This document shows positions 33,637 to 39,647 of a stretch of DNA of 63,206 nucleotides, piece after piece (the first letter of the stretch is position 1; each line of letters starts with the position of its first letter). Location: assembly GCA_019192455.1 (NCBI GenBank), contig JAHCML010000003.1, positions 311,244-374,449 on the forward strand. Direction: 5' to 3'. The position numbers and the translations under genes were made by a program. The notes beneath the pieces are model-generated. The model ran no database searches. It was not told the origin of the DNA and saw only the letters and a list, made by a program, of their open reading frames with translations. Source of the stretch: Alphaproteobacteria bacterium SS10 (GTDB lineage Bacteria > Pseudomonadota > Alphaproteobacteria > TMED2).

Positions 33637-35025
33637 ATGGCCTCGAATGCCACAATGAAGCGCCCAATGGTGGCGCGCCGTTCCGATGCGCTAACCGGCA
33701 CTATCCGGGTACCTGGCGACAAATCGATTTCCCACCGCTCTCTAATCTTCGGCGGATTGACCGTTGGTCGAACCGAAGTCACCGGCCTTTTGGAGGCGGA
33801 AGACGTCCTAAATACCATGGCTGCCATGCAAGCGCTCGGTGCCCGCATTGAGTACCGCAAGGGCCGTGGCGGGATGAGCAGCGAGGGCGGCTCGGTCAGT
33901 ATTGACGGTGTTGGTGTTGGTGCACTCGCCGAACCTGACCGTGTGCTCGATATGGGCAATAGCGGTACCGCCGCCCGGCTGTTGGTTGGCCTGGTTGCCA
34001 CCCATCCAATCACCACCTTCTTCACCGGCGACGCATCGCTGGTGAAGCGCCCCATGGCCCGGGTTACCGTGCCGCTGGGTCAGATGGGGGCGAACTTCCT
34101 CACCCGCTCAGGTGAGTTGGGTACGGGGCGTTTGCCCATGTCGGTTATTGGTGCCGAACTACCAATCCCGATTGAGTATCGCCTGCCGGTTGCCTCGGCG
34201 CAGGTCAAGTCAGCGGTTCTACTGGCCGGTCTGAACACGCCAGGTGAGACCAGCGTGATTGAGGATGTGCCAACCCGTGACCACACGGAAAACATGCTCA
34301 AGCATTTCGGCATTCCAGCCAGCATCACCGAGCTTGATGACGGTGCGTCCAAGATCACGGTCACAGGGCAGCAAGAGCTGGTTCCCGCCGCGATCCAGGT
34401 GCCGAGCGATCCATCCTCGGCTGCTTTCCCATTGGTTGCAGCGCTGCTGCGGCCTGGGTCGGATGTGACGATTGAGGCGGTGGGCATGAATGAACGCCGG
34501 ACCGGCTTGTTCATCACGCTGCAGGAAATGGGTGCTGATATCACCATCCTGAACGAGCGGGTTGAGGCCGGCGAGCCTGTCGCTGATCTGCGGGTTCGCT
34601 ATAGCAAACTTGAAGGCATTGAGGTGCCAGCCGAGCGCGCGGCAAGCATGATTGATGAATATCCCGTGCTGATGGCGGCGGCGTCCTGTGCCAAGGGCAC
34701 AACCTATATGCCGGGTCTGCATGAGTTGCGGGTGAAGGAGAGTGATCGTCTGGCGATGATGGCCAAGGGTCTGGCCGCTTGCGGTGTTGATCTCACCGAG
34801 GGTGAAGAGGACCTTACCATTCGCGGAACGGGAGAACCGCCACGCGGCGGTGCAGAGGTGGAAACGGCTTTAGACCACCGAATTGCAATGAGTTTTCTCA
34901 TTTTGGGTCAATCTACTGCAGAACCGGTCACTGTCGATGATGCCAGCCCAATCGCCACCAGCTTCCCAAACTTCACGAGTTTGATGGAAGGGCTAGGGGC
35001 GAAACTGCAGCGCGCGCCGATTTAG
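33637..35025 (+). CDS. aroA: 3-phosphoshikimate 1-carboxyvinyltransferase (EPSP synthase)
   Basis: This enzyme joins phosphoenolpyruvate and shikimate 3-phosphate in the sixth step of chorismate synthesis. Conserved blocks are [17 protein letters not shown] (near residue 25), the LGNSGT-like [22 protein letters not shown] and [11 protein letters not shown]. The length of 462 is a little long at the N-terminus, so the ATG at 33655 is an alternative start. The sequence is of the class II-like alphaproteobacterial type. The stop codon TAG interlocks with the TAA of the convergent zinc-ribbon gene. It is transcribed divergently from the TIGR02300 gene. Confidence 0.96.
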
Positions 35026-35324
35026 CGGTACCACTGCTTCCCGCTTGAGTTGATGATCAGCTCAATGCTGAGTTTCAGCGCGAAAATCGCTGAAAAAGCC
35101 AGCATAGGCAGCACCATCATCGACACATACGCGTCTTCCATGCCGAAGCCGTAGACCGCCAAAGCTATTGTTAAACCAACGAAAATAGCGATTGGCTTGG
35201 CATGTAGTGATGATTGCACGCCGAAATAGCTGCGGTAGCCGTATTTCGCGCCGCAGCCTCGGCAATGGGTTGCAACTGCCGGTATTCTTGTCTGGCAGTG
35301 CGGACAATTGATCATGTCGGTCAT
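35022..35324 (-). CDS. small zinc-ribbon membrane protein, unknown function
   Basis: This 100-residue protein has an N-terminal zinc ribbon ([22 protein letters not shown], two CxxC pairs) and two hydrophobic segments (about residues 45-60, [16 protein letters not shown], and 70-85, [15 protein letters not shown]). No specific family is recognised. The ATG at 35324 has an excellent GGGAGG seven bases upstream, which supports it being a real gene. Its TAA stop (35024-35022) overlaps the aroA TAG, leaving no intergenic space. Confidence 0.82.
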
Positions 35325-35403: not shown

Positions 35404-35949
35404 TTAGGTTAGCAGTTGATCGAGTAAGGTGTTGGTTTCGCTGATGAAATCATCCAAATCGCCATGGTTGTGGATGTAGTGTTCAGCGATGGCGATAGGC
35501 CCGCCCTTTTCTAGCTTCTCAATCTCGGCAATATCTCGCTGCCGGGCCTCATCAAAGGTGAGGGGGCGCACTTCCCGTTCCGCCAGGCGTTGGTGGCGTA
35601 GGCTGCGGGGTGCCACGATCCCTACCAGAACCAGATGCTCACCAAACTCAGCGCGCAGGGTTTTGTACTCTGAGAAGCTATAGAGCCCGTCAATGCCAAC
35701 CCCCTTCTCGGTTGAGAGGTGAGTGCGCAGCTTTGGCAGGGCTAGCTGTGCCATGGCATCCATACCGTGCTTTTCCCGCAGTTCTTCGCGCACCGCGCGC
35801 TCATTCTCCGGCGTTGCGGGTAGGCCGCGATCACGCACCTCTTGCAGGACCAAGCCGCCGAAATAGACGATCGGCAAGCCGCGACGGCGAAGCTCTTCAG
35901 AAAACACGGATTTGCCCGAACCGGGCATGCCTACAGCTGCGATGATCAT
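35404..35949 (-). CDS. UPF0200-like P-loop nucleotide kinase
   Basis: This is a 181-residue AAA/NMP-kinase-fold protein. Walker A is at the N-terminus (MIIAAVGMPGSGKSVFSEELRRRG), followed by VYFGGLVLQEVRDRGLPATPENERAVREELREKHGMDAMA, GVGIDGLYSFSEYKTLRAEFG, VGIVAPRSLRHQRLAERE, DIAEIEKLEKGGPIAIAEHYIHNHGDLDDF. This order is that of the archaeal UPF0200 family, related to dephospho-CoA and cytidylate kinases. The substrate is unknown. The ATG at 35949 begins the P-loop strand but has a weak ribosome site; the frame is open to 36078. It occupies, in reverse orientation, the aroA-rpsA interval where cmk is usual in alphaproteobacteria. Confidence 0.82.
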   Translation of the reverse strand: MIIAAVGMPGSGKSVFSEELRRRGLPIVYFGGLVLQEVRDRGLPATPENERAVREELREKHGMDAMAQLALPKLRTHLSTEKGVGIDGLYSFSEYKTLRAEFGEHLVLVGIVAPRSLRHQRLAEREVRPLTFDEARQRDIAEIEKLEKGGPIAIAEHYIHNHGDLDDFISETNTLLDQLLT

Positions 35950-36301: not shown

Positions 36302-38035
36302 ATGGCTAAAGCTGCCGCTGCTGCGCAAGAAGAAAAGCTTTCTTTTGCGGATATGCTGGATGAGTCCCTCGGGGATTCTGAAGGTTTTGAGGGTACCGTT
36401 ATTAAGGGTGTTGTGATCGCCCTGGATAGCGACGCCGCCCTGATCGATGTGGGCTTGAAATCCGAAGGGCGTGTGCCGCTTCGTGAATTCGCTGCACCAG
36501 GTCAAAAGGCTGATCTGAAGGTCGGTGACACCGTTGAGGTGTTCGTCGAGCGGATGGAAGACAAGAATGGCGAGGCCATGCTGTCGCGCGAGAAAGCTCG
36601 CCGCGAAGAAGCTTGGCAGCAGCTTGAGACTGCCTTCAACGACAACAACCGCGTCACCGGCACCATCTTTGGCCGCGTGAAGGGTGGTTTCACCGTTGAT
36701 CTGAACGGCGCTGTTGCGTTCCTTCCAGGCAGCCAGGTTGATATCCGCCCAGTGCGCGATGTCTCCCCACTCATGGGTACGCCACAACCATTCCAAATCC
36801 TCAAAATGGATCGCAGCCGCGGCAACATCGTTGTCTCACGTCGTGCTGTCCTCGAGGAAAGCCGCGCCGAGGCACGGTCCGAGCTGGTCTCCAGCCTCAA
36901 AGAAGGCCAGGTCCTGCAAGGTGTGGTCAAAAACATCACCGATTACGGAGCGTTCGTTGATCTGGGTGGTGTGGACGGCCTGCTGCACGTCACCGATATC
37001 TCTTGGCGTCGCATCAACCACCCATCGGAAGCCCTGCAAATCGGCCAGTCGGTTGAAGTTCAGGTCATCCGCTTCAATGCTGAAACCCAGCGTATCTCGC
37101 TTGGCATGAAGCAGCTGGAAGCTGATCCATGGGATGGCGTTGAAGCCAAATACCCAGTCGGTGCCAAGTTCTCTGGCCGCGTTACCAACATCACCGACTA
37201 CGGTGCGTTCGTTGAGCTGGAAGCCGGTATCGAAGGTCTGGTCCACGTCTCTGAGATGTCCTGGACCAAGAAGAACGTCCACCCCGGCAAAATCGTGTCC
37301 ACCAGCCAGGAAGTCGATGTGGCTGTCCTGGATGTCGACCCGAACAAGCGTCGTATTTCCCTCGGCCTCAAGCAGACCATGGAAAACCCATGGGACAGCT
37401 TCTCCGCCAACTTCCAAGCTGGCGCAGAGATCGATGGCGATGTCCGCAACATCACCGAGTTCGGCCTGTTCGTTGGCCTGCCTGGCGATATCGAGGGCAT
37501 GGTCCACATCTCCGATCTGGACTGGGAGCGGTCCGGTGAAGAAGCGATCAAGGACTACAACAAGGGCGATGCCATTAAGGTTAAAGTCCTTGAGGTCGAC
37601 ACCGAGAAAGAGCGTATCTCCCTCGGCGTGAAACAACTTTCTGACGATCCGTTCGAAGGTGCCGCTGGCTCCGTTAAGAAGAACGCAGTCGTTACCTGTA
37701 CGGTTACCAAGCTCGAAGACAACGGCATTGAAGTCGAAGTCAGCGAAGGCGTCACCGGCTTCATCCGTAAGGCTGAGCTGTCCCGCGATCGCTCTGAGCA
37801 GCGTCCAGACCGCTTCGCCGTTGGCGAGAAGGTCGACGCGTTGGTCACCAATGTTGATCGCAGTGGTCGTAAGATCACCCTGTCGATCAAGCAGCGCGAA
37901 GCCGCTGAAGAGAAGCAAGCCATGGCTGAGTTCGGTTCTACCGACAGCGGCGCTTCACTCGGCGACATTCTCGGTGCCGCCATGGCGAAAGCCGAGGGCG
38001 CCGGCGAAGACGACGCTGAACAGGCCGACAAGTAA
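36302..38035 (+). CDS. rpsA: 30S ribosomal protein S1
   Basis: S1 brings mRNA to the 30S subunit and unfolds structured leaders. The 577-residue protein contains six S1/OB-fold repeats; clear examples are VLQGVVKNITDYGAFVDLGGVDGLLHVTDISW (third), FSGRVTNITDYGAFVELEAGIEGLVHVSEMSW (fourth), IDGDVRNITEFGLFVGLPGDIEGMVHISDLDW (fifth) and VTCTVTKLEDNGIEVEVSEGVTGFIRKAELS (sixth). The ATG at 36302 has GGAG seven bases upstream; the longer frame from 36203 runs through the leader. Codon bias is strong, as in groEL. A terminator follows at 38048. Confidence 0.97.
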   Translation: MAKAAAAAQEEKLSFADMLDESLGDSEGFEGTVIKGVVIALDSDAALIDVGLKSEGRVPLREFAAPGQKADLKVGDTVEVFVERMEDKNGEAMLSREKARREEAWQQLETAFNDNNRVTGTIFGRVKGGFTVDLNGAVAFLPGSQVDIRPVRDVSPLMGTPQPFQILKMDRSRGNIVVSRRAVLEESRAEARSELVSSLKEGQVLQGVVKNITDYGAFVDLGGVDGLLHVTDISWRRINHPSEALQIGQSVEVQVIRFNAETQRISLGMKQLEADPWDGVEAKYPVGAKFSGRVTNITDYGAFVELEAGIEGLVHVSEMSWTKKNVHPGKIVSTSQEVDVAVLDVDPNKRRISLGLKQTMENPWDSFSANFQAGAEIDGDVRNITEFGLFVGLPGDIEGMVHISDLDWERSGEEAIKDYNKGDAIKVKVLEVDTEKERISLGVKQLSDDPFEGAAGSVKKNAVVTCTVTKLEDNGIEVEVSEGVTGFIRKAELSRDRSEQRPDRFAVGEKVDALVTNVDRSGRKITLSIKQREAAEEKQAMAEFGSTDSGASLGDILGAAMAKAEGAGEDDAEQADK

Positions 38036-39365: not shown

Positions 39366-39647
39366 ATGACCAAATCCGAACTCATTCTTCGGCTGGCCGA
39401 ACGCAATCCACATCTGTTCCAACGCGATGTTGAGCGCTTGGTTGCATGCGTTTTCGATGAAATCACCGATGCCCTGTCACGTGGTGACCGGGTTGAACTT
39501 CGCGGTTTTGGTGCCTTCTCAGTAAAGCATCGTGAGGCCCGTACCGGCCGTAACCCACGCACCGGCGCCAGCGTCGATGTGGAAGCGAAGTCCGTTCCAT
39601 TCTTCAAAACCGGTAAGCAGCTGCGCGAGCGTCTGAACACCGATTAA
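39366..39647 (+). CDS. ihfB: integration host factor subunit beta
   Basis: IHF-beta is a small DNA-bending protein that pairs with IHF-alpha, sharply bends specific sites, and helps sigma-54 promoters and recombination. The 93 residues carry the family signature [20 protein letters not shown] (about residues 48-67) and the N-terminal [17 protein letters not shown], typical of the beta subunit. An AGGAGG lies eleven bases before the ATG. The order rpsA-ihfB-lapA is standard in proteobacteria. Confidence 0.95.

Follow-up and report, generated by a model that had tools for sequence, protein, structure and literature searches.

We investigated how a P-loop kinase gene came to lie between aroA and rpsA in Alphaproteobacteria bacterium SS10, at the place where the cytidylate kinase gene, cmk, is usual. 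CMP freed during the turnover of lipids and RNA is recycled by CMP kinase, an enzyme that, to our knowledge, nearly all free-living bacteria possess. In the window (the whole 63,206-nucleotide stretch of DNA that was analysed), aroA (33637..35025, plus strand) and rpsA (36302..38035, plus strand) flank the usual cmk slot upstream and downstream, and a gene which, from its translation, we take to be ihfB or similar to it (39366..39647, plus strand) completes the usual gene order. The gap between aroA and rpsA contains only two genes, both on the minus strand. One (35404..35949) encodes P0001, a UPF0200-like P-loop NMP kinase that we propose to be a CMP/dCMP kinase; downstream of it, the other (35022..35324) encodes a small zinc-ribbon protein with hydrophobic segments, a relative of which was found in none of the other loci compared.

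The P0001 gene is an intact open reading frame, running from ATG to TAA and encoding 181 amino acids. The Walker A motif (P-loop), GMPGSGKS, occupies residues 7–14 (codons at 35908..35931, minus strand), with G7, G10, G12 and K13 invariant in family alignments; overall, P0001 keeps 15 of the 15 columns that are invariant in these alignments (26 and 25 rows). Using phmmer against PDB sequences, we found that residues 2–180 align with SSO1041, named ‘UPF0200 protein’ (E 7.6e-14), giving end-to-end similarity to a named member of the family, and a profile of P0001’s own family recovered SSO1041 at E 6.6e-30. Thus, the preliminary description of this DNA was right to place a P-loop kinase of the UPF0200 kind on the opposite strand. 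P0001 also passes the Pfam cut-off for AAA_17 (E 2.6e-10), while none of its Pfam or NCBIfam matches is to a model named UPF0200. The Pfam search returned no match to PF02224 (Cmk) at E ≤ 1 and none to PF13189 (Cytidylate_kin2), and the match to PF01121 (CoaE), at 11.9 bits, falls short of the cut-off of 27. The protein consists of the kinase domain alone, with no C-terminal dCMP/dCTP deaminase domain, and is accordingly not an AvcD-like deaminase. No paper found in our literature search assigns a function to the UPF0200 family or to SSO1041. Since the GC3 of the P0001 gene (0.648) matches that of aroA (0.652) and rpsA (0.659), the gene is not obviously a recent insert or part of a foreign contig, and we rejected both a recent foreign insertion and a mis-binned contig on these grounds.

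We compared the slot across the class using 20 cmk loci from the 52 class genomes with a cmk match, L003 and L010 being incomplete loci. In these relatives cmk adjoins rpsA in 18/20, aroA in 13/20 and both in 12/20, so that the expectation of finding cmk in this slot, on which the preliminary description had relied, is sound for the class. The best plasmid-borne matches of AroA are mostly alphaproteobacterial (among them Tritonibacter, Shinella, Thioclava and Sphingomonas), plus one from Herbaspirillum, and on this basis we treat the class as Alphaproteobacteria. A tblastn search of the aroA–rpsA interval with the cmk proteins of 18 class relatives (E ≤ 1) detected neither cmk nor a cmk remnant, confirming that the interval lacks the gene; a decayed copy in the gap was thus rejected.

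The preliminary description had offered, as an alternative, that cmk has moved elsewhere. Profile searches of the whole source genome (G000; 16 contigs totalling 3.19 Mb, with completeness rated at 100% and contamination at 2.26%) gave zero matches to PF02224, zero to PF13189 and a single ADK match. A relocated cmk is thereby excluded as far as profile searching goes, and a second, Adk-family UMP-CMP kinase was rejected on the single ADK match. Within the class, 52 of 58 genomes have a PF02224 match; the 6 without a match over the threshold are G000 and five genomes of 0.8–1.7 Mb, none of which contains a P0001 relative. By row count, every other class genome of 2.0 Mb or more, 33 in all, has a cmk match.

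The relationship between the family and cmk could be examined in a contrast set of 327 Chloroflexota genomes from the class of an Anaerolineales record (G385), in which the family and PF02224 were called at E ≤ 1e-10 with the best 9–11 candidates per genome scored. The family was identified in 20 of these genomes and PF02224 in 283. cmk is missing from 18 of the 20 genomes with the family versus 26 of the 307 without it (Fisher p 9e-16), a p value that overstates independence, as the family-bearing rows form a single clade. For this reason the number of independent cmk losses among them may be small, perhaps one or a few, to which the lineage of the window adds at least one. Two Chloroflexota genomes, G653 and G428, contain both genes. 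The family match of G653 is distant (76 bits), and the comparison without this genome becomes 18/19 versus 26/308; G428, a true member of the clade, keeps cmk on a contig of similar GC. Missing data are an unlikely reason for the absence of cmk from the 18 genomes, because Adk was found in all 18. PF13189 is strong in five of the 18 and borderline in a sixth (G713), which leaves the P0001 family as the sole recognised CMP kinase candidate in 12 or 13 of them. Of the Chloroflexota genomes that lack both PF02224 and the family, 14 were listed; 6 of these have PF13189 at ≥88 bits, and Cytidylate_kin2 may therefore be a second cmk substitute in this phylum.

Across 385 class genomes, a convincing P0001 relative was found only in the SS10 genome itself, three others giving partial matches of 20–22 bits. 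A scan of named genomes yielded 25 loci with the family, from Chloroflexota, Planctomycetota, Patescibacteria, Nostoc, Oscillospiraceae, a deltaproteobacterium, Caldisericia, DPANN archaea, a Methanopyri archaeon and three genomes titled only ‘bacterium’. PF02224 exceeded the cut-off in 5 of the 25 scanned family genomes, these being two Nostoc and three archaeal genomes. We built a maximum-likelihood tree with 73 rows, leaving out Halobaculum, G653 and two Rhizobium rows as long or distant. In it, the sister group of P0001 is a clade formed by 20 Chloroflexota rows (bootstrap 95, SH-aLRT 87), namely those of the 18 cmk-less genomes, of G428 and of G386, a named genome. P0001 and these Chloroflexota nest within a larger clade whose members are bacterial apart from a few from DPANN archaea; the archaeal UPF0200 proteins, represented by SSO1041 (Sulfolobus) and the Methanopyri row, form the outgroup. 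The term ‘archaeal-type’, used in the preliminary description, is thus apt in that the UPF0200 family was named from archaea, but the nearest relatives of this gene are bacterial and the archaeal proteins are a distant outgroup. Because the family is nearly absent from the class and the sister rows are Chloroflexota, the tree makes it most likely that the P0001 gene was acquired laterally, with bacteria as its nearest kin.

Spread by phages or plasmids was considered and rejected: phage records contained no P0001 relative, plasmid records contained four, all at <46% identity and with Nostoc as the best, and at least two viral contigs gave partial matches. The Nostoc homologue (L025:1939-8099, L034 and L036) lies on a plasmid or in an accessory region. 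In L025 it lies between a DNA methyltransferase gene and one for a radical SAM protein of the B12 type, the latter matching the candidate defence model PDC-M51A (E 2.8e-8).

Among the bacterial family genomes whose titles name neither a Patescibacteria lineage nor Nostoc (G000 and 11 others), PF02224 was found in 0/12 and CoaE in 9/12. The latter count bears on the idea that P0001 is a second dephospho-CoA kinase, to which we give almost no credence. CoaE proteins have a related fold and a similar C-terminal region, reflected in a weak match of P0001 residues 105–176 to the CoaE model NF002879 (E 0.0031) and in the recovery of 2if2 by the family profile at E 2.4e-5, and CoaE is missing from the Patescibacteria members and from G396 and G399 (both titled only ‘bacterium’) and G391 (Oscillospiraceae). 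However, an ordinary, separate CoaE is present in G000 (G000:C9, 128 bits) and in 8 of the 11 comparable genomes, which makes a second such enzyme unlikely; P0001 itself falls under the CoaE cut-off, and CoA-pathway genes were not recognised among the neighbours.

In Patescibacteria, the surroundings of family genes point to pyrimidine monophosphates. A gene for dCMP deaminase, dUTPase, GlyA or Tmk lies within 1.5 kb in 13 of 30 Patescibacteria family loci, or 18 of 30 if Adk is also counted as a pathway neighbour, with the queries drawn from the loci themselves and with L079 and L084 coming from the same genomes as L038 and L048. None of 20 control stretches, taken from 20 of these genomes, contained a pathway gene, and in the matched set the comparison is 6/20 versus 0/20 (p 0.02), or 11/20 with Adk included (p 1.5e-4). 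A single Nealsonbacteria protein (L038:2375-3934) is a trifunctional UPF0200–dCMP deaminase–dUTPase fusion, and its gene is followed by those for GlyA, ThyX and Tmk, forming a compact dTMP-synthesis gene cluster. In L040, L041, L044, L045 and L047, a dCMP deaminase gene lies directly downstream of the family gene. No dTMP-pathway neighbours were found at the window locus or at the 20 Chloroflexota loci.

A link to adenylate kinase was also observed, in Patescibacteria loci L046, L048–L051, L081, L093, L094 and L099. It takes the form of Adk–UPF0200 fusions in L048:5416-6546, L049:5419-6543, L050:831-1958 and L051:5410-6540, and in L050 a second, stand-alone family copy comes right after the fusion. 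The fusions of L048–L051 lie in what we take to be a ribosomal-protein gene cluster. The Adk-fused members form a separate clade in the tree and coexist with PF13189-type kinases, and may have a different role.

cmk is rare in Patescibacteria whether or not the family is present. Among 295 genomes, for each of which the best 9–11 candidates were scored, PF02224 was found at E ≤ 1e-8 in 16 and a strong family member in 37, most genomes having neither; cmk is present in 1/37 genomes with a strong member versus 15/258 without one (p 0.70), and the phylum was thus uninformative as a second contrast set. The figure of 37 leaves out 75 of 112 matching genomes (E 1e-10 to 1e-30), whose weaker kinases may include divergent family members.

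On the basis of these observations, we consider it probable, at roughly two chances in three, that P0001 was acquired laterally and that, as a CMP/dCMP kinase, it then displaced cmk non-orthologously. P0001 would be an NMP kinase of the bacterial UPF0200 clade that phosphorylates CMP and dCMP with ATP to the diphosphates. The ancestral recipient of the gene, in what appears to be an alphaproteobacterial lineage, would have gained it laterally from a source shared with the Chloroflexota (Anaerolineae) clade; P0001 would have taken over the job of Cmk, cmk would have been lost afterwards, and the P0001 gene would now sit in the former aroA–rpsA slot of cmk, on the opposite strand. Three points here are inferences: which substrate is used, in what order the events took place, and that the slot reflects replacement rather than coincidence. 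Phosphorylation of CMP and dCMP appears the most likely activity because this step is missing from the genome and because the neighbours of family genes handle dCMP, dUMP and dTMP. The pattern of cmk absence in Chloroflexota and the pathway neighbours in Patescibacteria together support such a role and, with it, the earlier suggestion that the kinase may have replaced cmk.

We used AlphaFold2 to generate a predicted structure for P0001 (pLDDT 94.5). The best structural match is 3lw7, an ‘adenylate kinase-related protein bound to AMP’ (Foldseek E 2.7e-13; VIA Z 24.4, with an rmsd of 1.8 over 170 residues). Adenylate kinases of the AK1 type (Z ~17) and UMP/CMP kinases (~16) come next. The predicted model thus has the fold of solved UPF0200 members, and supports an NMP kinase while leaving the base (CMP versus AMP or other) unseparated. 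The likeness to SSO1041 (PDB 3h0k, 3lw7) extends over the full-length sequence and the fold, although identity is 28–30% and the archaeal members fall outside the clade of P0001. With Cmk, P0001 would share the reaction, and it shares the chromosomal slot of class relatives’ cmk and the P-loop kinase superfamily. The two nevertheless belong to different families: the Cmk motif DGRDxG corresponds to IDGLYS in P0001, and RDxRDxxR to RDxxEIEK. Profile–profile comparison of the P0001 family with Cmk gave a probability of 91.8 (E 7e-7) but, set alongside the comparison with CoaE, did not discriminate.

The AMP in 3lw7, the nearest solved relative, would fit a different history, in which P0001 is a kinase of another nucleotide or small phosphorylated molecule (AMP, dUMP, GMP or a broad range), cmk was lost independently, and CMP is used by another enzyme or degraded. 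We regard this as rather unlikely. The adenylate kinase link in several Patescibacteria is in keeping with it, but the Adk-fused proteins are the separate clade described above, found with PF13189-type kinases. Nostoc and some DPANN archaea keep the family and cmk together, and the five other cmk-less class genomes, which lack the family, indicate that a genome may lose cmk without requiring a replacement; those genomes, however, are the small ones of 0.8–1.7 Mb. Archaeal GMP kinase is described as having no assigned gene as of 2014 (PMC4177761), and the archaeal UPF0200 members could be this missing enzyme. Against a substrate of that kind, the cmk-absence pattern and the dCMP deaminase, dUTPase, Tmk and GlyA neighbours indicate pyrimidine monophosphates.

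The Nealsonbacteria fusion also connects the family to AvcD-like dCTP deaminases (PADLOC dCTPase, NF041025). It matches the PADLOC dCTPase model over residues 4–323 (E 7.7e-56), spanning both domains, with a partial match to NF041025; on this alignment, the P-loop half of anti-phage dCTP deaminases and the P0001-type kinase appear to be one lineage. P0001 itself matches the PADLOC dCTPase model at 27.6 bits which, with the plasmid setting of the Nostoc homologue between its methyltransferase and radical SAM neighbours, could suggest a protein with an accessory function such as phage defence, related to the AvcD-like P-loop half and found in the cmk slot by coincidence. We consider such a role very improbable: unlike the AvcD-like proteins, P0001 is a kinase domain without a deaminase, no defence genes were found among the neighbours examined, and most family members occur in housekeeping settings or in cmk-less genomes. 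Returning to displacement of cmk by P0001, a wider form of this reading is more tentative, with the odds slightly against it: the bacterial UPF0200 clade might be a further CMP/dCMP kinase family, spread laterally between phyla and able to displace cmk, here into its very slot, with the dCMP deaminase-fused kinase of Patescibacteria sharing its origin with the AvcD-type P-loop half.

If true, a lineage that has swapped Cmk for a UPF0200 kinase would provide the first function for that family, and would account for the cmk gaps in the Chloroflexota clade and in several other bacteria. It would also be relevant to the role of the archaeal UPF0200 members, the archaeal GMP kinase gene being still unassigned in 2014 (PMC4177761), and to the P-loop domain found in anti-phage deaminases.
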